From Alphaproteobacteria bacterium (GTDB lineage: Bacteria; Pseudomonadota; Alphaproteobacteria; GCA-2731375), in assembly GCA_016869175.1 (NCBI GenBank), contig VGEV01000017.1, positions 1 to 39,147 of the forward strand: a DNA stretch of 39,147 nucleotides, in the 5' to 3' direction. This document shows positions 8,705 to 27,389 of the stretch, in pieces. The number at the start of each line of letters is the position of its first letter. Within the stretch, counting starts at the first letter, position 1. The translations under genes and the position numbers were made by a program. Below the pieces are notes generated by a model that was given only the letters and a program-made list of their open reading frames with translations, was not told the DNA's origin and did no database searches.

Positions 8705-10060
8705 TCAGGTGGCGAGCAGCGGGGTGCGGCGGCAATGCCAGTCGGTCGCCGCTTGGTAGGCGGCGCCGATGCGCAGCAGCAGGCCCTCCCGCCAGCGGGC
8801 GGCATGCAGTTGCAGGCCGATGGGCAAGCCGTCGGCCGTGAAGCCGCAGGGTATCGCCAGCCCCGGCACCGCCGCCCAGGAAAAGGGAAACGTGAAGCGC
8901 GTCAACTGGTGCGTCGTCGCCAGCATGTTGGTGGCATCGGCGATGGGCGGCGCGGGCACCGGCGTGGTCGGCGTCAGGATCGCATCGACCTCGCTGAACG
9001 CACGGTCCATCGTGCGCAACCAGCGCTCGCGCCAGCGCATAGCGGCGGCGTAGTCCGCGCCGCTCACGTTCTTGCCCAGCAGCAAGCGGCTCAGCACGTC
9101 CTCGCCGAACATTGCCGGCTGGCGCTCGGCCCGCTCGCGGTGGAAGGCATAGAGGTCGGCCCAGACGATGGGCATCATGCGGCCGTGCGCCTCCTCGGCG
9201 CCGTCGATGTGGATGTCGCGGATCTCGGCGCCCAGGCCGGCCAGCACGTCGGCCGCCGCCCTGACCGCCTGGCCGAAGCCGGGCGCCAGGTCCTGGAGGA
9301 AGAAATTGCGTGGCAGGCCGATCCGCAAGCCGGCGATGCCGTCGTCCAGGCGCGCCAGGAACTCCTCCCAGGGGTGGGGCACCGAACTGGTATCCTCGTC
9401 GTCATAGAACGCCATCACCGCGAACATGCGGGCAAGGTCGGCCACTGTGCGGGCCATCGGCCCGACGGTGTCGATCAGCGGGCAGAGTTGCAGCTTGCTG
9501 CCGCTCATCGGAATGGCGCCAACCGTCGGCCGCAATGCCGAGACGCCATTCACCGCCGCGGGCGTGCGCACCGAGCCGCCGGTGTCGGAGCCGACCGCGC
9601 CAACGCACATCTCGGCCGCCAGGGCCACCGCCGCGCCGCCGCTCGAGCCGCTGGGGATGCGCTCCGGGTCCCAGGCGTTGCGCACGCGGCCGAAATGCGG
9701 GTTCTGCGAGGTCGAGCCGTAGCAGAATTCGTGCAGGTTGGTCTTGCCGACGATCACTGCTCCCGCCTGGCGCAGCCGTTCAACGACCGGCGCATCCGCG
9801 TTGGGCACGTAGTCGCGAAAAAACAACGAGCCGTTGGTGCAGCGCACGCCGGCAACGTCGATGCAGTCCTTGACCGATATCGGCAGGCCGGCCAGCAGCC
9901 CGGAGCAGGCGCCGCGGTCCTGCTGGGCGTCGATCCGCTCGGCTTCCGCCAGGGCCTGCTCGGCCATGACGGTGATGAAGGCGTTCAGTCTCGGATTCAG
10001 CCGGGCGATGTTGTCGAGGCAGCGGCGCGTCGCCGCCACAGCGGATGGGGTTGTCGGCAT
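8705..10060 (-). CDS. Amidase-signature family hydrolase
   Basis: A 451-aa amidase with the family's Ser-cisSer-Lys site: lysine 64 in LPISVKD, the PSGSSGG loop (around residues 136-142) and the nucleophile serine 163 in SDTGGSVR. Enzymes of this group hydrolyse amides, aryl-acylamides or carbamoyl groups to acid and ammonia. It heads a four-gene minus-strand operon with a PRISE reductase, permease and hydroxy-acid oxidase. The ATG at 10060 is preferred over the track start at 10114 because of AGGA closely upstream. A link to the hydantoinase cluster (hydrolysis of an opened ring product) is plausible but unproven. GatA is unlikely, since gatC and gatB are absent. Confidence 0.9.
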   Translation of the reverse strand: MPTTPSAVAATRRCLDNIARLNPRLNAFITVMAEQALAEAERIDAQQDRGACSGLLAGLPISVKDCIDVAGVRCTNGSLFFRDYVPNADAPVVERLRQAGAVIVGKTNLHEFCYGSTSQNPHFGRVRNAWDPERIPSGSSGGAAVALAAEMCVGAVGSDTGGSVRTPAAVNGVSALRPTVGAIPMSGSKLQLCPLIDTVGPMARTVADLARMFAVMAFYDDEDTSSVPHPWEEFLARLDDGIAGLRIGLPRNFFLQDLAPGFGQAVRAAADVLAGLGAEIRDIHIDGAEEAHGRMMPIVWADLYAFHRERAERQPAMFGEDVLSRLLLGKNVSGADYAAAMRWRERWLRTMDRAFSEVDAILTPTTPVPAPPIADATNMLATTHQLTRFTFPFSWAAVPGLAIPCGFTADGLPIGLQLHAARWREGLLLRIGAAYQAATDWHCRRTPLLAT

Positions 10061-10179
10061 GGCTTCCTGCGGATCTGCTGGGACCAGCGTTTCATGCTCG
10101 CGCCGGGCATGCAACCAGTGCCAAGCTGATGGTCTGCCGGCGGTCCGGCAGCAAGGCGATTTGGGCGACGGGGAATGCG
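10061..10179. promoter_or_regulatory. Divergent promoter gap, amidase operon/MBL hydrolase
   Basis: This 119-base gap separates two genes read outward and must hold both start regions unless they are read from elsewhere. I see a GGGGA ribosome site before the MBL start and AGGA before the amidase start. No convincing -35/-10 pair and no strong palindrome was found by eye. Confidence 0.4.
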
Positions 10180-11049
10180 ATGCGGCGGGTGGGCGAGTTC
10201 GAAGTGCGGCGGGTCGTGGAATCCGAGGGGCCGTTGCTGAAGCCGGAAGTATTCTTCCCGCAATCGACGCCGGATATCTTCGCCCAACATGCGCACTGGC
10301 TCAAGCCCCGGCATCTCGAGCCGGCCAGCGGCCTCTTGGTCTTGTGCATCCAGAGCTACCTCGTGCGCACCGGCCGCCATACCATCCTGGTCGATGCCTG
10401 CGTCGGCAACGACAAGGACCGAGCCGTGCACCGGCCAGCCTGGCACAGGCAGAACTGGCCCTATCTGGAAGACATGTGCAAGGCGGGTGTCAGGCCGGAA
10501 GAGATCGACTTCGTGCTCTGTACGCATCTGCATATCGACCATGTCGGCTGGAACACCCGCCTGCGGAACGGCCGCTGGGTGCCGACCTTTCCCAACGCGA
10601 AGTACATCTTCGCCCGCCAGGAATACGCCTTCTGGGAGGAGCGCCATCGCCAGGACGGCGGTGCGGGCCAAGGAATGGCTTTCGCCGACAGCGTGCTGCC
10701 GGTCATGGAAGCCAGGCAGGCGGTGCTGGTGGACACCGATCACGAGATCGCCGCCGGCGTCTGGTTCGAGCCGGCGCCCGGCCACACCGCCGGCAACGTG
10801 GTGGTCAACCTGCGGTCCGGGAGCGATCACGCGGTGCTGACCGGGGACGTGATCCATCATCCGATCCAACTCGTGCGGCCCGACTGGTCGAGCAGGGCCT
10901 GCGAGGATCCGGTGCAGTCGCATCGCACCCGGCGCGCCTTGTTGGAACGCTATGCCGACAGCGCAACGCTGTTCGCGCCGGCGCACTTCGCCTCGCCCAG
11001 CATCGGCCACGTGGTGCGCGCGGGCGAGCATTTCGCCTATCGCGACTAG
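10180..11049 (+). CDS. MBL-fold metallo-hydrolase
   Basis: This 289-aa protein has the metallo-beta-lactamase fold signature HLHIDH at H116-H121, which binds two metal ions, followed by GHTAGN and a late TGDVIHHP aspartate motif. It is closest in appearance to quorum-quenching lactonase-like or AttM-type hydrolases, which open lactones or thioesters, but the family is too broad to name a substrate. The track ORF starts at 10045; the ATG at 10180 (MRRVGEFEVRR) has GGGGA upstream and the usual family opening. There is no signal peptide, so it is cytoplasmic. Its TAG stop is supplied by the left end of the palindromic repeat at 11046-11108. Confidence 0.88.
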   Translation: MRRVGEFEVRRVVESEGPLLKPEVFFPQSTPDIFAQHAHWLKPRHLEPASGLLVLCIQSYLVRTGRHTILVDACVGNDKDRAVHRPAWHRQNWPYLEDMCKAGVRPEEIDFVLCTHLHIDHVGWNTRLRNGRWVPTFPNAKYIFARQEYAFWEERHRQDGGAGQGMAFADSVLPVMEARQAVLVDTDHEIAAGVWFEPAPGHTAGNVVVNLRSGSDHAVLTGDVIHHPIQLVRPDWSSRACEDPVQSHRTRRALLERYADSATLFAPAHFASPSIGHVVRAGEHFAYRD

Positions 11050-11108
11050 GGCAATTTCCGTTCAAATCGAACCGGCATGTTCGGTTTGGACGAACGCCAT
11101 CGCCCTAG
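11046..11108. repeat. Palindromic intergenic repeat, copy A
   Basis: This imperfect palindrome of about 63 bases begins and ends with CTAG; its outer arms start CTAGGGCAAT and, on the other strand, CTAGGGCGAT. An inner hairpin has arms AATCGAAC and GTTCGGTT. The first 42 bases match copy B (15184-15245, opposite orientation) at 37 positions. It lies between converging genes and contains the MBL stop codon, so it may act as a two-way transcription end. There is no clear U tract. Confidence 0.75.
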
Positions 11109-11950
11109 AGAGCGCCCGCGCCGCCGCTCGGGGCGTCAGGCCGCCAATCCGCGCGATGCGTTCGACGGTCCGCAGCCAGCCGTCGAGCTCGCGCTCCCAC
11201 GGCTCCAGCATGACGTGATCGAGGCCCCGGCGGCGTAGTCGGCAAGGCGCGTCGCCAGGCTGGCGTCGTCGCGGCCGTCCCAGCCGACGCGCATCGAGGT
11301 GACGAGATCCGGCCGGGCAGCCTTCAGGCGACGCACGATGGGGGCGCGGCCGCGGGCTCGAGCTGCGTGCCGTGCCAGCCGTCGCCCAGCGCGATGGCGC
11401 GCGCCAGCGCCGCTTCGGAGGTGCCGCCGATCCACACCGGGATCGCCGGCTGGGGCTTCGGCTGCATGCGCATGTTGGTAATTTCCGCCTCGATCCACGT
11501 CGTCTCGAAGCTGACCGGGTCGTCGTGCCACAGCGCGCGGATCAGGCGCAGACCCTCGTCCATGCGCCGGTCGCGTTCGGCGAAGGGCACACCCAGGGCG
11601 GCATATTCCTCCTTCAGCCAGCCGACCCCGGCACCGAGGATCAGCCGGCCGCCGGACAGCACCTGCAGCGTCGCCAGTTCCTTGGCCAGGGGTACCGGGT
11701 GGCGCATCGGCAAGACCAGCACGCTGGTGCCCAGCCGCACCCGCGCGGTGCAGGCCGCCGCCCAGGCAAGCGTCAGCAACGGATCGAGGAACAATGGCGA
11801 AGGCGGATAGGGCGCACCCACGGGGACGATGATGTGCTCGCTGGCCCAAACGTCGGCGAAGCCCAGCGCCTCCGCCTGCTCGGCCGCGCGGCGGATCGCC
11901 AACGGCCCCGCCTTGCGCCCGACATGCGGCAGGTGAATCCCCAGTTGCAT
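11062..11950 (-). pseudogene. Luciferase-like (LLM) F420/FMN oxidoreductase, two frameshifts
   Basis: The reading frame starts as a normal luciferase-like monooxygenase (MQLGIHLPHVGRKAGPL, then LGTSVLVLPMRHPVPLAKEL and GAGVGWLKEEY). It breaks near 11345 at a run of five C, continues in another frame (APIVRRLKAARPDLV), and breaks again near 11236 at a run of four G, then reads GLDHVMLEPWERELDGWLRTVER to a stop at 11062. Each break is explained by one missing base, giving about 296 aa if repaired. Both sites are homopolymers, so sequencing error is as likely as true decay. The last codons run into repeat copy A, so the original stop is uncertain. It follows dctM by 39 bases, suggesting co-transcription with the TRAP genes. 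Confidence 0.85.
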
Positions 11951-11989
11951 GACTTCCCCCTTGGCCCTTGTCGCCTAGGTATCACAGGC

Positions 11990-13288
11990 CTAGTAGCCGA
12001 CGGCCTTGGGCAGCCAAGTGGCGATGTCGGGAAAGGCCATGACGGTGGCGAGGCCCAGCAGCAGGACCAAGACGAACGGCAGAGAGCCGGCGGCGATGTC
12101 CCTGCTGGAAATGTGCTTTGGCACCACCCCTTTCAGCACGAACAGGTTGAGGCCGACCGGCGGGGTGATCATGCCGACTTCGACCGCGATGGTCACCAGC
12201 GCGCCCAGCCAGACCGCGTCGAAACCTAGCCGTTTCAGGCCCGGAAAGGCGATCGGCAGGGTGATGACCAGCATCGAGGCCGGGTCCATGACGCAGCCCA
12301 GGATCAGCAGCACGACGACATAGCCGATCAGCACCCAGATGGGCGCGACCTGGGCCGCCGTCAGCGCCTCGACAATGCCATACGCCACGCCGCAGGCCGC
12401 CACGACGAAGCCGAAGAACGAGCCGCAGATGATCAGCAGCAGGATCATCGCGGTCGTCTGCGCGGTGCGGATCAGCACGGTGTCGAGGCCGGCGAAGCCC
12501 ATGCCCTTGCGGGCGAAGGTCAGCACCAGCGCCACCCCGGCGCCGATCGCCGCCGCCTCGGTCGGCGCGGCGATGCCGGTATAGATGGCGCCCATCACCG
12601 CGGCGAACAGCACCATGATCGGCCAGATGCCGCGCAACGAGGCCAGCCGTGCGGGCCAGGTGACGGCCATGGACCGGCCCGTGCGATCGCCCCGCGAACG
12701 CCAGATGACATAGGCCGACAGCAGGCCGGAAAACATCAGGCCCGGCACGACGCCAGCGGTGAACAGGGCGCCGATCGCGGTCTCGGTGATGATGCCGTAG
12801 ATGATCATGACGACGCTGGGCGGGATCAGGATGCCGAGCGTGCCGCCGGCGGCGACGATGCCCACGGCCAGGCGTTTGTCGTAACCGTGGCGCAGCATCT
12901 CCGGCACCGCGGTATAGCCGATGGCGGCGGCCGTGGCGGGGCTGGAACCGGAGATGGAGGCGAACAGCGTGGCCGAGGCGACAGTGCTGACACCGAGCGA
13001 GCCCGGCAGCCAGTTCAGCCATTTCTTGGCGCCGTCGAAGGACCGCGTGGCCACATCGGACCGCGACACCGTCCCCGCCATCAGCACGAACAGCGGGGCC
13101 ACGATGAAAAGATGCGTGCTGGCCACATCGAAGCTGATGCGCGCAAGCTGCATCAGCATCGCCGGGCTGAGAAACAAGTAGACCCCCGCCATGCCCGCCA
13201 GGCCGAGACTGAACGCCACCGGCACGCCGGCGAACAACAGCAGCAACAGGATGGCGAACAGCGCCAATCCCATCTGATCCCATTCCAT
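11990..13288 (-). CDS. dctM: TRAP transporter large permease (DctM type)
   Basis: A 432-aa inner-membrane protein with many hydrophobic helices and DctM family motifs: GVPVAFSLGL near the start, SGSSPATAAAIG in the middle, GTLGILIPPSVVMIIYG, and MITPPVGLNLFVLKG near the end. It forms the ion-coupled channel of a tripartite periplasmic carboxylate transporter with DctQ and uses DctP for capture. GAGGT precedes the ATG at 13288. It lies 50 bases after dctP on the same strand, but dctQ is divergent. Substrates of TRAP systems are usually organic anions; this one cannot be specified. Confidence 0.95.
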   Translation of the reverse strand: MEWDQMGLALFAILLLLLFAGVPVAFSLGLAGMAGVYLFLSPAMLMQLARISFDVASTHLFIVAPLFVLMAGTVSRSDVATRSFDGAKKWLNWLPGSLGVSTVASATLFASISGSSPATAAAIGYTAVPEMLRHGYDKRLAVGIVAAGGTLGILIPPSVVMIIYGIITETAIGALFTAGVVPGLMFSGLLSAYVIWRSRGDRTGRSMAVTWPARLASLRGIWPIMVLFAAVMGAIYTGIAAPTEAAAIGAGVALVLTFARKGMGFAGLDTVLIRTAQTTAMILLLIICGSFFGFVVAACGVAYGIVEALTAAQVAPIWVLIGYVVVLLILGCVMDPASMLVITLPIAFPGLKRLGFDAVWLGALVTIAVEVGMITPPVGLNLFVLKGVVPKHISSRDIAAGSLPFVLVLLLGLATVMAFPDIATWLPKAVGY

Positions 13289-13338
13289 GCGACCTCGCCC
13301 GCCTGGCGGCTACCGGCGGTTGGCGATCAGCGCCCGGT

Positions 13339-14412
13339 TCAGCCCGGGCAGGCCGCAATCGGCCCGATCGCCGGCTTGGCCTTAACGTTTGGACGGTAGC
13401 GGTCTACGATGGCGAGGATCTTCGCGCCGTCGGGCGTGACGGATCCTCGGACCGAATCCAGCACCTTGTCGGCACCGGCGACCAGGCGAGCGAACTCCCG
13501 GTCCGAGGGCGTGCAGAACTGCACGCCGGCGGTTGCCAGGCGCTTGATCACATCGTCGAGGCGATTGTTGGTTTCCTGCGAGGCCCAGGCGACGATTTCG
13601 TCGCCGGCGTCGTTCATCGCCTTCTTCTCCGCGTCCGACAGCTTCGCCCAGGTCTGGCTGGCAACGTTGATGGTGCCGAACGCAATCGAATGATCGACCC
13701 GCGTCACGCGCGGAGCCACCTGGAACAGCTTTAGCGATTCCAAGCCGTTATAGACCATCAGCGTGCAGTTGGCGGTGCCGCGTTCGAGCGCGCTGTAGAG
13801 CTCGCCGGGAGGAATCACCACCGGGCTGCCGCCCCAGTTCTTGATGGTCTCAGCCTGCCAGCGCCCAGCGGTGCGCACGATGACGCCGCGCCAGGCATTG
13901 GGGCCGCTGAGGAACCGGTCGCGGCACGTCACAGGGTCCGGCAGGATGATCGGCGCGGCCGCCACCACCTGGCTGCCGAAGCGGGCGTAGATCGCCTGCA
14001 CCGGCGCCTTCACCTCCTGGTGGAAACTGGCCAGATCCTTGGCATCCAACGGGAAGCTGAAGGGAATGTCGAAGGCCGCGAGATCGACGATATCGCCCGA
14101 GACATAGGGGGTGAACTGCAGCGCCACGTCGACCGCACCGTCGCGCAGCGCGTCCAACGTCTTGTTGCCCACCAGACTGCCGGCCCAGTGATAACGGAAG
14201 GTCAGCTTGCCGCCGGCGCGCTCGGTGACCAGGCCGGCCCAGCGCTTGATCACCTCGGAGGAGAAGTCGGTCTCGGGAAATACCGTCGTCACCTGCAAGG
14301 TACGCGCCGTTTGCGCGGCCGCACCGCCGACGAACAGCGTCAAGCCCGCTCCCAGCAAGACGCCAGCGATCCATCCAGCGCCGCCAAGGCGCGCCTTCGA
14401 TTCCGTGGTCAT
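13339..14412 (-). CDS. dctP: TRAP transporter substrate-binding protein (DctP type)
   Basis: A 357-aa periplasmic protein. The N-terminus has a Sec signal peptide (hydrophobic GWIAGVLLGAGLTLFVGGAAA, cleavage near AAAQ|TA). The mature part shows DctP features: an early TVFPETDFSSEVIKRW region, GALVDVALQF-like text (GAVDVALQFTPY), and the segment WRGVIVRTAG containing the arginine that usually pairs with a substrate carboxylate. The ATG at 14412 replaces the longer track start at 14634, which would bury the signal peptide. Two cysteines (PVTCRDRF and TANCTLM) could form a disulphide. It heads the dctP-dctM unit, with dctQ divergent across a 205-base gap. Confidence 0.93.
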   Translation of the reverse strand: MTTESKARLGGAGWIAGVLLGAGLTLFVGGAAAQTARTLQVTTVFPETDFSSEVIKRWAGLVTERAGGKLTFRYHWAGSLVGNKTLDALRDGAVDVALQFTPYVSGDIVDLAAFDIPFSFPLDAKDLASFHQEVKAPVQAIYARFGSQVVAAAPIILPDPVTCRDRFLSGPNAWRGVIVRTAGRWQAETIKNWGGSPVVIPPGELYSALERGTANCTLMVYNGLESLKLFQVAPRVTRVDHSIAFGTINVASQTWAKLSDAEKKAMNDAGDEIVAWASQETNNRLDDVIKRLATAGVQFCTPSDREFARLVAGADKVLDSVRGSVTPDGAKILAIVDRYRPNVKAKPAIGPIAACPG

Positions 14413-14617
14413 GGCGGGTCCCCCGTTCGGCCGGCATGCGACGTGCCATCGGTTGGCGGCGCGCGGGCGCGGCTCGTGGCCATCATCTTGCGAGCCAACC
14501 TGTTCATCAATTTCATGACACCTGTGCGAGCCGCAACAGGAGCGCATACCACCTCGGCCCGACTTTGCTCTGCCCACCGTTGCACGGCATCGTGCAGCAG
14601 GGGCGAGTGGGGGCGGC
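14413..14617. promoter_or_regulatory. Divergent gap dctP/dctQ with small hairpin
   Basis: The 205 bases separate the two halves of the TRAP system and should hold both promoters. A perfect small inverted repeat, TGCACG-GCAT-CGTGCA (14581-14596), lies about 20 bases before the dctQ start. The phrase TGCGAGCC occurs twice in the gap. No clear -35/-10 pair was identified and no regulator gene is adjacent. Confidence 0.4.
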
Positions 14618-15151
14618 ATGCCGGACCAGCACAATCGCGCGGTGGCGGGGCTCTACGGCCTCAATCTCTGGCTCATCCGGCTGGCCGGTTGGTTGATCTT
14701 GGGCATCACCGTGGTCACCGTTTTCGGTGTGTTCATGCGCTACGCGCTGCGGGCGCCGGAGGTCTGGTCCTATCCTCTCTCCGCGTATCTCTTGTGTCTG
14801 GTGGTCTTTCTGTCCGTCGCGCATACCCATCAGGAGGGCGTGCATGTGCGGGTCGACTATTTCCTGGAACTGCTGCCACGCCGCATGGCCTTGGCGTTGC
14901 GGCTGGTCGGCGATGTGCTATCGGCCTGCTTTCTGGTGGTAATGACCTGGCTGCTCTGGAAACTATTCGCCGAGACGGTGCAGCGCGGCCGCATCGACGA
15001 GACGACGCTCGGCTGGCCGCTGGCGGCGATCCAGTGGTGCCTGCCGGCAGGCATCGCTCTGCTGCTGCTGACGCATGTCGTGGTGTCGTGGTCCGAGTTC
15101 GCCCGCGCGCGAAGGCCGCCGGCGCAAGGGCACGGCGAGCAGACATTCTGA
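14618..15151 (+). CDS. dctQ: TRAP transporter small permease (DctQ type)
   Basis: A 177-aa membrane protein with four predicted helices (roughly residues 20-40, 53-72, 88-110 and 133-155), the expected DctQ topology. Family-like text includes FGVFMRYALRAPEVWSYPLS and VAHTHQEGVHVRVDYFLELLP. DctQ holds the large permease in the complex. Normally it sits between dctP and dctM or is fused to dctM; here it is divergently transcribed, so expression of the three parts depends on two promoters. The ATG at 14618 follows GAGTGGGGGCGGC. It ends 33 bases before repeat copy B. Confidence 0.9.
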   Translation: MPDQHNRAVAGLYGLNLWLIRLAGWLILGITVVTVFGVFMRYALRAPEVWSYPLSAYLLCLVVFLSVAHTHQEGVHVRVDYFLELLPRRMALALRLVGDVLSACFLVVMTWLLWKLFAETVQRGRIDETTLGWPLAAIQWCLPAGIALLLLTHVVVSWSEFARARRPPAQGHGEQTF

Positions 15152-15183
15152 CAAGTCAGCGCAACGCGCCGCCTTCATGGTTG

Positions 15184-15245
15184 CCGGGCAATGGCTTCCG
15201 GGGAAACCGAACCTGCCGGTTCGATTGGAACGGCAGTTGGCCTAG
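15184..15245. repeat. Palindromic intergenic repeat, copy B
   Basis: Read on the minus strand from 15245, this copy begins CTAGGCCAACTGCC and holds the hairpin AATCGAACC-GGCA-GGTTCGGTT, with nine pairs including one G-U. The first 42 bases match copy A at 37 positions, and the far end (GCCATTGCCC) corresponds to GCCATCGCCC of copy A. It lies between converging dctQ and the GH127-like gene, and its CTAG supplies the latter's stop codon, exactly as copy A does for the MBL gene. Confidence 0.75.
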
Positions 15246-16921
15246 CCTAATCGAAAGTCGATCCGCGGCACAGGGCGCGGGCGCGTCGGAACGGCGCCGG
15301 GCGCGAGGCCGGTACGGCGATAGAGTGGCAGCCTGTCGCCGGCGGGCTGCATGCGCATGACGGTGTCGCCTCGCCACTCCATGCGATAGTCATCGCCCAG
15401 CACGCGTTCTTGGCTCGTGCGCGTGGCGACGGGGAAGGTCAGCTCAATGGGCTGCCCCGCTGGCAGGCGATCGAATTCGATGAAATGCCTGCTGGGCGCA
15501 AGCCAGGTTAACTCTTGCCCGGCCAGCGTTGCATTCAGCGTTCGGCGATCAACCCAACTTGGTATCCGCACGGCCAGATTGCCCGCCTGCCGCAGCGTCA
15601 CCTGCAATCGGCCTTCGTGCGGCAGCCAGCTTCTGACAACCGCCCGTTCGTCGGCATGGTTCAGCAGCAGGTTGACCTGCACGCGGCCGGGCACGGCGGT
15701 GACCGCGTTGGTCCAGGCGTTGAACAAGCCGCGCACACCTTGCGCGCAGCAGCACATGTAGAGGTCCCAGGAGTGCATGACCTTGGAGACGAGGTCGTTG
15801 GGTTGCGACCAGCCCGCGAAGCCGCCCAGCGCGCGTGCGGCGACATCAACCGTGGTCTGCCATTCATCCGCCGCACGCTCGTCCGCGCAGGCTTCCGCCC
15901 AATCGACCGAAGTGAGTTGGCTTTCCACCACATGGTTGCGCAGGAAGCGCTCGGCATCCTCCCAGCACTCATCGTGGCCCGAGCGTGCCAGCCAAATCGC
16001 GGCTTCCATCATGTCGACGATGGCGCAGGTCTCGGCGCCATGCGCGCGCTCGCGCACCAGCCGTTCGGGGAACCAGCCGAAAGTCGTGCCATAGCTCTTG
16101 GCCCGCTCGAAAACCTGGCGGCCCCAGGCCAGCGCCCGTGCGTCGCCAAACCCGTGGCCATAGCGGATCACGCCCAGCATGGTCAGCGCGCGGCTATGGA
16201 AATGGCCTTCGCGAAACTCCATGCCGGTGGCGAACCCGCCGTCCGGCAGGTAGGCGCTGGAATGATGCATCACGTGGTTGGCGTAAGCCGCCGCCAGCCG
16301 GCCCGCATTCTCGTCGCCCAGCAGTTCGTGAAGTCGGGTCAGGCCGAACAGCAGGCGGCCGTTGGTGTTGGCGGGATCGACGCCGAAACTGAGGATGCCC
16401 CAGTCGCCGCGCGGCCAGCCATCCGGCAGGCGCTCGACGCTCGGGAAGTACCAGAAGCCATCGCGTTTGATCGAAATGTCGACCAGCGCCTTCGTCAGCG
16501 CGCGCGCCTGCGCCGCCGCGCGTTCGGAGCCGCGCGCCAGAATGAGGCTCAGCAGGGCGCTGATGACCGAGCGCTGGTAATGCATGTTGGCGTGCCGGAA
16601 GCTCCACGGATTGTCCGGCGTGTAGTGCAGGCCGTCCGTGCCGAAGCCCGGCCAGAACAACGCTTCCAGCCGTTCCAGCTCGGTCTCGCCGCGACGTTCG
16701 CCGGACAGCGCCTGCGCCAGCAGCAAGGCGTCGATCAGCCGCGCGGTGTGGTCGCTGTAGTCGAACTGCGTGTGCTGCATGCGCGGTGGCGAGCCGGTCA
16801 GGTCGATCAGGCAGTAGGGCAGGTGGTGTTTCGTCGGGTTCAGGCAACGGGTCAGGCAGTTGAGCGCCAGAGCCGCGTGTTCCGGCAGGTAGAGCGTGTC
16901 GGGGAAAGACTCTGTCGGCAT
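15242..16921 (-). CDS. GH127/DUF1680-like protein (alpha/alpha barrel glycosidase-type)
   Basis: The 559-aa protein looks like an all-helical barrel (about residues 50-400) followed by a beta-rich C-terminal part. Two motifs recall the beta-L-arabinofuranosidase family GH127: ETCAIVDMMEAAIWLARSG (ETC at 297-299) and a cysteine cluster MCCCAQGVRGLF (390-392). In characterised GH127 enzymes, cysteines from these regions bind zinc and one acts as nucleophile. A later VRIPSWVDRR fits the sandwich domain. There is no signal peptide, so it would act in the cytoplasm. It lies eight bases after the TauD-type dioxygenase gene, an unusual partner. Family assignment is moderate; a related uncharacterised clade is possible. 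Confidence 0.62.
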   Translation of the reverse strand: MPTESFPDTLYLPEHAALALNCLTRCLNPTKHHLPYCLIDLTGSPPRMQHTQFDYSDHTARLIDALLLAQALSGERRGETELERLEALFWPGFGTDGLHYTPDNPWSFRHANMHYQRSVISALLSLILARGSERAAAQARALTKALVDISIKRDGFWYFPSVERLPDGWPRGDWGILSFGVDPANTNGRLLFGLTRLHELLGDENAGRLAAAYANHVMHHSSAYLPDGGFATGMEFREGHFHSRALTMLGVIRYGHGFGDARALAWGRQVFERAKSYGTTFGWFPERLVRERAHGAETCAIVDMMEAAIWLARSGHDECWEDAERFLRNHVVESQLTSVDWAEACADERAADEWQTTVDVAARALGGFAGWSQPNDLVSKVMHSWDLYMCCCAQGVRGLFNAWTNAVTAVPGRVQVNLLLNHADERAVVRSWLPHEGRLQVTLRQAGNLAVRIPSWVDRRTLNATLAGQELTWLAPSRHFIEFDRLPAGQPIELTFPVATRTSQERVLGDDYRMEWRGDTVMRMQPAGDRLPLYRRTGLAPGAVPTRPRPVPRIDFRLG

Positions 16922-25134: not shown

Positions 25135-26406
25135 TCAGGTCCGTTCGAAATCGATGCGCTCGACCACCGGCAAGCCTTGCAGATAGCGACGCAGGCAGTC
25201 GAGGCCCAACTCGGCGGCGCCCAGCCGCACCCAGTCGCGACCGCCCAGCATGCGTGCGCGGCGCGACACCACCTCATCCGGGCTGGCAACGGCAAGGCAG
25301 ATGGTGCCGCCCAGGTCGATGCGGTCGGCACCTTCGTCGAGCTCCACCAGCACCGCCAACGCGTGGCTGGCGGCGGTGGCCTTGCGCGCCGCCTCGGCCA
25401 CCGTTTCCGCCGCTTCGCAACTGACTTCGCCGTTGAGATTGCGGCCATCGAGGCCGACCGCCGAGCGTATTTGCGCCAGGTCGCGCGAAACGATCCCCCG
25501 CTTGAACACCGCCTCGGCTCCCGGCAAATGCACAAGACGGCTGGCGATGTGGCCGGCGGTGAAGGTCTCCACCACCGCCAAGGTGCTCCGCTCTACGGCA
25601 AGCGCCTTCAACACCACGCCCTCCAACGTGTTGTCGTCTTCCGCCAGGATGAAGTTGCCGAGCCGCTTGCGCACCTCCTCCTGCACCGGGGCCAGCTTCT
25701 GCTGCACCTCGTGCAGGTCACAGCCGCGCACGGTGATCTTGGTCTCCAGCTGCGGATAGTGCGCGCGAAAGCCCAGCTTCACGCCACCGCCCGGCACCAG
25801 ATCCTCGAGGCCGGCGAGCAGCGCATCGACATGCGACTCGCCAAGCCCATAGGAATGGAAGCGCTTGAGGTGGATGGCGGCCTGGGTGCCGCTCAGCGAC
25901 AGCAGCCGCGGCACGATCTCTTCTTCCAGCATGCGGCGCAGTTCGCGGGGCACGCCGGGCGTGAAGAAGAAGCGCGCGCGACCGATATCGAGCGCGAAGC
26001 CGCAAGCGGTGCCGACCGGGTTGTCCAGCACCTCGGCGCCTTCCGGCAGCATGGCCTGCTTGCGGTTGTTGGGCGGCATCACCCGCGCGCGCCGGCGGAA
26101 GAATTCCTCCATCCGGGCGAGCCAGTCCTCGTTGAGCCGCAATTCCAGGCCGGCCGCCTTGGCGGCGATCTCCTGCGACAGGTCGTCGATGGTCGGTCCC
26201 AGCCCGCCGTTGACGATCACCGCATCGGCGCGTTCGCCGGCCTCACGAAACGCGTTTAGCAGCGTCTCGCGGTCGTCGCCGACGGTCGTTCCCCAGCGCA
26301 CCGTCAGCCCGAAGTCCTCCAGCTTCTGGCTGATGCAGCTGAAATTGCTGTTGACGATCTTGCCGGTCAGCACCTCGTCGCCGGTGCAGATGATCTCGAT
26401 GAGCAT
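25135..26406 (-). CDS. CinA-like protein with altered nicotinamide-nucleotide amidase domain
   Basis: The 423-aa protein has the CinA layout. An N-terminal MoaB-like domain (TGDEVLTGKIVNSN, then NGGLGPTIDDLS at about 67-77) is followed by a linker and a PncC-like C-terminal domain. The family's ESCTGG motif, holding the catalytic serine of the NMN deamidase, is replaced by ETFTAG (residues 280-285), and the following YS pattern is VSRD. The C-terminal activity may thus be lost or changed while the N-terminal pyrophosphatase part looks intact. CinA is usually linked to recA or stress; here it lies in a catabolic operon between GST and MDR genes, suggesting a duplicate with a new role. Start ATG 26406. 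Confidence 0.87.
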   Translation of the reverse strand: MLIEIICTGDEVLTGKIVNSNFSCISQKLEDFGLTVRWGTTVGDDRETLLNAFREAGERADAVIVNGGLGPTIDDLSQEIAAKAAGLELRLNEDWLARMEEFFRRRARVMPPNNRKQAMLPEGAEVLDNPVGTACGFALDIGRARFFFTPGVPRELRRMLEEEIVPRLLSLSGTQAAIHLKRFHSYGLGESHVDALLAGLEDLVPGGGVKLGFRAHYPQLETKITVRGCDLHEVQQKLAPVQEEVRKRLGNFILAEDDNTLEGVVLKALAVERSTLAVVETFTAGHIASRLVHLPGAEAVFKRGIVSRDLAQIRSAVGLDGRNLNGEVSCEAAETVAEAARKATAASHALAVLVELDEGADRIDLGGTICLAVASPDEVVSRRARMLGGRDWVRLGAAELGLDCLRRYLQGLPVVERIDFERT

Positions 26407-26471
26407 GGTTTCGACCCGGGCGGAAAGCGCAATGCTAGTGGATGCGGCAGGCGACCGCCAGCGAGGGCCGC

Positions 26472-27389
26472 TCAGGCCGCCCGGACGGCGTAGCCCAGGC
26501 GGGGGAAGTGCACCACGACCTCGCCCGTTGCCGGGTGTTCGCGCCGCAGAGAGATGCGCCGGTCGTCAAGGCCCGCAAGTATGCCGATAACCGCGTCGCG
26601 GCCGTAATCGTCGGGCGTCACGGCGATGGAGGCGCCGGCTCGCAGGCCTAGTCCATTCTCGCCATCGACGCCCTGGCCGCCCGCCGGGCTGGCGGCGGCG
26701 GCGATGGCCAAGGCATCGCCAGACGCCAGTGGCCGGGCGTCGCCATGGCCGATGGCGGCGATGCGGTCCATCCAGGCCAACACCGCCGGTTGCGGGTCCA
26801 GCAGGGCCGCCGTCCTGGCATGCGCCTGCCGCAGGAACCAGCAATGGCCGTAGATCGCCGCGTCAGCCAGCGTCGGCCCAGCCCCCAGCAGGAAGGGGCG
26901 CTCGCGCAGCATGTCGGCCAGCCAGCGCAATTGCTCGCGCAGGCGGTCGCGATAGCGCGGCGCCGAGCGCCTGAGACGGTTGAGATCGAGCGGCACGGCC
27001 CACATCGCCGCGCGGTCGGCGTGGAACTCCATGGGAAAGGCCTCCGGCGCCGTGCCGACGATGAAGCGGCCGACATTCCAGGCCAGACCCAGACCCGCCC
27101 AGTGCTGCAACGCCAGGGCAAGGCCGCGCAGCCCCTGCGGCAGCAGCGCCGGCTCGCGATGGCGCGCTTCCAGCTCTTCGAGGATGCAGGCGGTATCGCA
27201 GTAGACGTCGGCACCGACCTGCAGCACCGGAATGCGCCGGTAGCCGCCCGTCAAGGCCAGCAGGTCGGGCTTGGGCATGATCATCGGCGCCTCGACCGAG
27301 CGCCAAGCAAGCCGCTTGATGCCGAGCGCGACCCGCACGATCTCGGCAAAAGGCGAGAGTGCGTAGTGATACAGCAGCAGTTCCGCCAT
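26472..27389 (-). CDS. Glutathione S-transferase-like protein with C-terminal extension
   Basis: A 305-aa GST-fold protein. The thioredoxin-like N-terminal domain starts LLLYHYALSPFAEIVRVALG and includes the GYRRIPVLQVGADVYCDT region that binds glutathione, followed by the helical C-terminal domain with FLLGAGPTLADAAIYG. An extra roughly 60-residue beta-rich tail (SIAVTPDDYGRDAVIG to VVHFPRLGYAVRAA) goes beyond the usual 200-230 aa. Expected roles are glutathione addition to, or removal from, electrophilic intermediates such as epoxides or halides. The track start at 27539 was cut to the ATG at 27389, five bases after the acyl-CoA ligase stop. Confidence 0.88.
   Translation of the reverse strand: MAELLLYHYALSPFAEIVRVALGIKRLAWRSVEAPMIMPKPDLLALTGGYRRIPVLQVGADVYCDTACILEELEARHREPALLPQGLRGLALALQHWAGLGLAWNVGRFIVGTAPEAFPMEFHADRAAMWAVPLDLNRLRRSAPRYRDRLREQLRWLADMLRERPFLLGAGPTLADAAIYGHCWFLRQAHARTAALLDPQPAVLAWMDRIAAIGHGDARPLASGDALAIAAAASPAGGQGVDGENGLGLRAGASIAVTPDDYGRDAVIGILAGLDDRRISLRREHPATGEVVVHFPRLGYAVRAA

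Follow-up and report, generated by a model that had tools for sequence, protein, structure and literature searches.

The described repeats closest to the element reported here are probably the CIR (Caulobacter CcrM-associated intergenic repeats, Chen and Shapiro 2003) of Caulobacter and Brucella, to which it is likened by description. CIR are about 110 bp long (PMC2229807) and, like the present element, consist of two long inverted-repeat arms joined by a linker, have TA termini and occupy intergenic positions in several Alphaproteobacteria. Unlike for the present element, that review (PMC2229807) describes no targeting of stop codons or CTAG for CIR and enters the target duplication as "?". 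CIR also carry GANTC, the CcrM site, at the tip of one arm; this apex is kept in only 16 of the 55 full copies in the genome analysed here and was rejected as a conserved core for this genome. RIME of Rhizobium and Bru-RS of Brucella are, again by description, similar: both are palindromic repeats from Alphaproteobacteria, 100-odd bp in length and scattered between genes. IS711 uses Bru-RS as a landing site, which parallels the use of the element's CTAG ends as a landing site by several insertion sequences (ISs). The MITEs RUP, Correia and ERIC share with the element a length of 100–150 bp, TA termini and a target duplication (PMC2229807), but they are built of one long end-to-end stem instead of two arms, and no stop-codon bias is reported for them there.

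Two ISs are similar in their choice of target. IS630 has a preference for 5'-CTAG-3', in which it selects the TA (Tenzen and Ohtsubo 1991, cited in PMC2170065), and IS630-family copies in a relative described below (CP030885.1) share the YTAR target of the element; unlike the element, IS630 encodes a transposase and its ends are not paired arms. IS870 requires CTAG and makes its own stop codon with it (Fournier 1993, cited in PMC6471742); there the target completes the gene of the IS itself, whereas the element rebuilds the stop of a host gene. REP/RAYT families, in turn, carry a GTAG or CGTC tag beside a palindrome of 20–40 bp (PMC3733652). A literature search found no description of miniature elements that land in and rebuild stop codons, which is a weak absence because the primary CIR and RIME papers lay outside the search.

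Two incomplete copies in the window

The window is a stretch of 39,147 nucleotides (contig C17, VGEV01000017.1) of a draft alphaproteobacterial genome (GCA_016869175.1; 3.97 Mb, 285 contigs). It carries two copies of what the first-pass annotation called a 62-bp palindromic repeat. The repeat itself is real: the copies run in opposite orientation, are identical at 37 of 42 bases in their left part, as had been observed, and in a repeat search no other inverted pair in the window is as long (60 nt, 82%). The length of 62 bp is not that of the element, however, as it covers only the left half of a unit of about 140 bp of which both window copies are incomplete versions.

Copy 1 (11046–11108, plus strand, 63 bp) is a single-hairpin derivative with CTAG at both ends. 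The element proper extends from G11049 to C11105 and is bordered by TA at 11047–11048 and 11106–11107. The gene that ends in it (10045–11049, plus strand) codes for a protein with a metallo-beta-lactamase fold (Pfam Lactamase_B), and its TAG stop (11047–11049) is composed of the target TA and the first G of the element. The convergent neighbour of copy 1 stops at a TGA (11138–11136) and not in the right terminal CTAG (11105–11108, plus strand). Copy 2 (15160–15245, minus strand), the delineation of which rests in part on comparison with the consensus, starts with CTAG at 15245 and contains the left hairpin (15241–15186) followed by the linker (about 15185–15160), while the right hairpin is missing. 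Its terminal CTAG (15242–15245) includes the TAG stop (15242–15244) of the minus-strand gene 15242–16921, which encodes 559 amino acids and has no Pfam hit. A convergent gene for a DctQ-type TRAP transporter protein (14618–15151, plus strand, TGA stop at 15149–15151) lies on the truncated side.

Both copies, then, sit between convergent genes, and in both the stop codon of an adjoining gene (10045–11049 on the plus strand, 15242–16921 on the minus strand) falls in the terminal CTAG, just as the first-pass annotation stated. The hairpin it placed in each is pronounced in copy 1, which folds far better than shuffled sequences on both strands (z −5.1 and −4.6), and is not strong in copy 2 (z −1.2 and −0.7).

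The window has two further features of note. In the luciferase-like monooxygenase gene at 11136–11950 (minus strand), a frameshift or a sequencing error around 11324–11345 leaves two frames that overlap, and a 152-bp direct repeat (184–335 and 1623–1774, 89%) in adjacent dihydropyrimidinase-like reading frames is a partial tandem gene duplication.

A two-arm element dispersed in the genome and in the class

The idea that these repeats belong to a dispersed family could have failed for want of further copies, but about 96 distinct covariance-model matches are found in the window genome. BLAST searches of the same genome returned 40 scored copies with the left half as query (E down to 4e-11) and 40 with the right half. 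This copy number is far beyond chance. When aligned, the copies show a sharp left end at CTAG, and their conservation continues for about 80 bp beyond the palindrome first noticed, up to a second CTAG. The full element of about 140 bp (CTAGGGCAATTTCCGTTCAAATCGAACCGGCATGTTCGGTTTGAACGGAAGCCATTGCCCTGCAACCATGACCGCAGCGCGGTGGGCTCCGATCAGATGGATCGCTGATCGCGATTCCATCTGATCGGACACCGCGCTAG) consists of a CTAG, a hairpin, a linker (TGCAACCATGACCGCA), a second hairpin and another CTAG. Other derivatives retain the outer ends and have lost one arm or parts of both arms. Short, dispersed, non-coding and sharing sharp ends, these sequences look as MITEs do, and the two repeats of the window are very probably worn fragments of a parasitic two-arm miniature transposon of this kind.

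Rfam 15 contains no match above gathering score, an exact 23-mer of the element occurs in none of 84,980 species genomes besides its own, no copy was found in 14 genomes of other genera of the same family, and distant BLAST searches of plasmids with three element types gave no match. Elements of the same architecture with different stem sequences are present in other families of the class. One carrier is a relative with a complete sequence, CP030885.1 ("MAG: Rhodospirillaceae bacterium isolate ECT2AJA-110-B"), which has 18 near-identical full copies, 8–9 near-identical 62-bp single-hairpin copies comparable to copy 1 of the window, and a second element family as well. The terminal inverted repeats, rather weak in the consensus of the window genome (8/12), are 16 bp long in CP030885.1 (CTAGAGCgcGATCGTC vs CTAGAGCagGATCGTC), and the elements there look recently active. 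Two genus mates of CP030885.1 also carry the element. Near both ends of the deposited chromosome of CP030885.1 there are identical stretches (about 25972–27317 and 4619308–4620653) that resemble an untrimmed terminal redundancy of a circular assembly.

With a wider model (R2; short calibrations were used for the models), at least 10 of 398 genomes of the phylum are matched, all of them in the same class and spread over six families; the scan scored eight candidates per genome, so that class-wide counts are lower bounds. The matched sequences keep the CTAG...CTAG frame and the two arms, usually with GATTC or GAATC at the arm tip, and GANTC occupies this position in most elements of other genera. 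With two inverted-repeat arms and a linker, such elements measure 115–145 bp.

Insertion at stop codons

The target of the element is best seen in CP030885.1, for which the joined flanks of eight insertions were searched in two genus mates (G061 and G062), that is, within the genus of this relative and not that of the window genome. In the porin gene, the empty site of G061 reads CTTCTAGGTCCG (in a longer stretch, CTGGACTTCTAGGTCCGGCACGGCC), and the filled site of CP030885.1 reads CTTCTA[G...C]TAGGTCCG (with flanks, CTGGACTTCTA[element]CTAGGTCCGCGACGGC). The CTAG at the stop of the bcp gene is empty in G062 (AAGGAGCTCTAGGAGG) and filled at that very TAG in CP030885.1. For smpB and for an esterase gene, the sister copies stop at the corresponding position, using TAG, TGA or TAA, and a sister lacks the insert; the esterase site is filled in G062 too. 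The change between orthologous sites is from CTAG to C-TA-[G…C]-TA-G. As the sister genes end at the same place without the insert, the stop codon must have been there beforehand. The first-pass annotation, which had the repeat supply stop codons, thus took the insertion target for a product of the insertion, whereas its alternative suggestion, a small mobile element that is non-autonomous and prefers CTAG, is right and is borne out by the empty porin and bcp sites.

The length of the duplication follows from imperfect junctions in the window genome. Some copies have different left and right junctions (ATAG/CTAA, CTAG/CTAA and TTAG/CTAG), and the inner G and the inner C are conserved in 51 and 54 of 55 cases, respectively. 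This shows a duplication of TA alone, not of the whole CTAG, in a YTAR target. We are confident that insertion takes place at YTAR, in most cases CTAG, and duplicates the TA. YTAR amounts to a TAR stop codon read on both strands, and since G is the first and C the last base of the element, TAG is rebuilt at both junctions on both strands.

Gene ends around the copies conform to this. Coding frames were assigned with a home-made codon-preference score trained on the window genes in place of a standard gene finder, so the counts are approximate. Of the genes that extend to the element, 44 of 47 on the left side and about 46 of 52 on the right have their stop in the terminal TAG/TAA (TAA once); a random frame would give one third (P about 1e-16 to 1e-18). 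At least one exact flanking stop is present in 65 of 96 copies, as opposed to 32 of the 123 CTAG sites elsewhere (P 9e-10, Fisher test), and 12 copies have exact stops on both sides, so a lack of any relation to gene ends, with copies inside genes, is not what is found. Convergent gene pairs flank 43 of the 85 scorable copies, and ten copies are in divergent contexts. In CP030885.1, a gene stops exactly in the terminal TAG at 18 of 26 copies, the 20 gene ends extending to the element are exact without exception, and the background frequency of CTAG serving as a stop is 10/43.

Much of this pattern is explained by the choice of target, because CTAG is rare: the roughly 336 kb sampled contain 123 CTAG sites outside elements, of which 32 are stops and 38 are inside genes. 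The excess of exact stops that is left, with odds ratios of 6.0 against all CTAGs and 3.5 against the non-interior ones, suggests that harmful insertions have been purged as well.

The element thus inserts at the TA of YTAR, mostly CTAG, and duplicates this TA, so that a gene entering the element from either side meets TAG at the junction; the protein is unchanged and the gene little harmed, and a pre-existing TAA stop is converted to TAG. In this GC-rich genome, where CTAG is rare and in good part represents stop codons, insertions accordingly sit at the 3' ends of genes, a bias that removal of harmful insertions would sharpen further. Single hairpins bounded by CTAG might derive from internal deletion and be able to spread on their own. 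Stop-codon-preserving insertion would be a simple way of life for a parasite in a gene-dense genome. Both the window genome (C70:4066-4206) and CP030885.1 (1587373–1587435), which belong to different families, have an element in the stop of a bcp-type peroxiredoxin gene, apparently through independent insertions.

Candidate transposases and the role of the arms

An IS630-type transposase is the probable mover. As proposed, an IS630-family (Tc1/mariner-type) enzyme would act in trans on TAGAGC-type ends. IS630-family (DDE_3) genes are present in both the window genome and CP030885.1, and in the latter all eight IS630-type copies whose boundaries were examined are located at YTAR; those seen at both ends are bounded by GAGC...GCTC. 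One IS630 type of CP030885.1 has an end (TAGAGCGGTTTCC) in common with a resident element family at 16 of 20 positions; its start, TAGAGCGGTTTCCAGCCG, is to be compared with TAGAGCGGTTTCCGACCG of the second element family. Shuffling puts the chance of such a match at about 0.001, and no other element end exceeds 12 against this IS end. In another genome (G147) the IS630 end matches the element at 16/20, and the same IS end matches other lineages at 15/20. In the window genome, an IS630 copy occupies the TAG stop of a further gene (L260), with a loose end match of 11–13/20, and a complete IS whose two ends equal those of the element was not found there. G061 and G384 both carry the element yet gave no DDE_3 hit, although ISs are easily lost from draft assemblies. 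Given the missing full-length IS with element ends and the weak end matches, the transposase step is one that we infer. A search of CP030885.1 for an autonomous copy with the pattern TAGAGCNNGATCGTC, allowing 1 mismatch, matched almost only the ends of elements, and the candidate units of 1 kb proved to consist of IS481- or IS5-type insertions adjoining the element.

A CTAG-requiring transposase of the IS5 family (IS427/IS870-type) is an unlikely alternative mover. The dependence of IS870 on CTAG speaks for it, MITEPsy1 of Pseudomonas syringae targets CTAG or YTAA (PMC3189936), and in both genomes IS4/5-type (DUF4096) ISs directly adjoin the element at its CTAG. The ends of these ISs (GGTCATGAACTC, GGTTCTGTGGAC, GGCCATACACTC) are nevertheless unlike those of the element, to which some IS630 ends are similar, and the mismatched ATAG/CTAA junctions fit a duplication of TA and not one of 4 bp. 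The ends of the element also act as IS landing sites. At the ends of eleven contigs of the window genome (C18, C26, C30, C49, C86, C89, C146, C175, C176, C184 and C200), where ISs abut the element's CTAG, these ISs are of the IS630, IS4/5-like and probably IS1380 types, and many contigs break there.

The arms may be understood as parts required for movement. Between lineages, 165 of 760 cells are changed on both sides of the arm and still paired, whereas shuffles give 62 and slid controls no more than 36, and 0/500 shuffles reach 165. Among resident copies, covariation is weak but above shuffles. In the resident stems of the window genome, 213 of 326 changed cells are unpaired. Pairing that is strongly kept between lineages and weakly among residents points to a need during movement, and hairpin pairing would accordingly be a requirement of transposition: selection on moving copies, and not a host function, would maintain the end hairpins, and resident copies would mostly decay. 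Resident stem columns are somewhat less diverged than unpaired columns (10% vs 16%), which leaves room for some host-level constraint.

It is an even bet that the CIR-type two-arm repeats across Alphaproteobacteria are one superfamily of IS630-driven, stop-codon-homing miniature transposons, in which the G...C ends are kept for rebuilding TAG and the arms for transposition. If true, this would explain why such repeats crowd at gene 3' ends. TA at YTAR stop codons offers a concrete answer to the missing target duplication of CIR-like two-arm repeats, and IS630 is named as a testable mover where the review calls for more information on the mechanism of mobility (PMC2229807).

The arms might instead belong to a two-way transcription terminator or 3' mRNA stabiliser maintained by the host, but this is very improbable. 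The strong hairpins of copy 1 on both strands and the many convergent gene pairs speak for it, and the first-pass annotation considered a two-way transcript end. Aligned flank columns, however, contain no U-tract or T-run beside the hairpins, and three CP030885.1 sites (bcp, an hsp20-like gene and the porin gene) have a separate G+C-rich hairpin with a T-run downstream of the element. In addition, departures of resident stems from the consensus mostly break a pair, the orthologous genes of sister species manage without the element, and some copies are in divergent contexts, as counted above. The 3'-end bias that invites terminator or regulatory readings is explained by target choice and TAG regeneration.

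Movement as a REP/BIME or REPIN by a RAYT tyrosine transposase is exceedingly improbable: the two palindromes are in an inverted arrangement and the suggested check for a REP-associated transposase did reveal one Y1_Tnp gene in the window genome, but the tag, found at either end of a 140-bp unit, is CTAG and not GTAG or CGTC (cf. PMC3733652), TA is duplicated, and the Y1 gene scores below the RAYT cut-off (71 vs 80 bits) and sits amid different repeats containing CTGTCACCGG. Short direct repeats around CTGTCACCGGTTT are found on both sides of the RAYT-like gene on contig C92 of the window genome (L031:1250-2480) and constitute a separate small repeat system.
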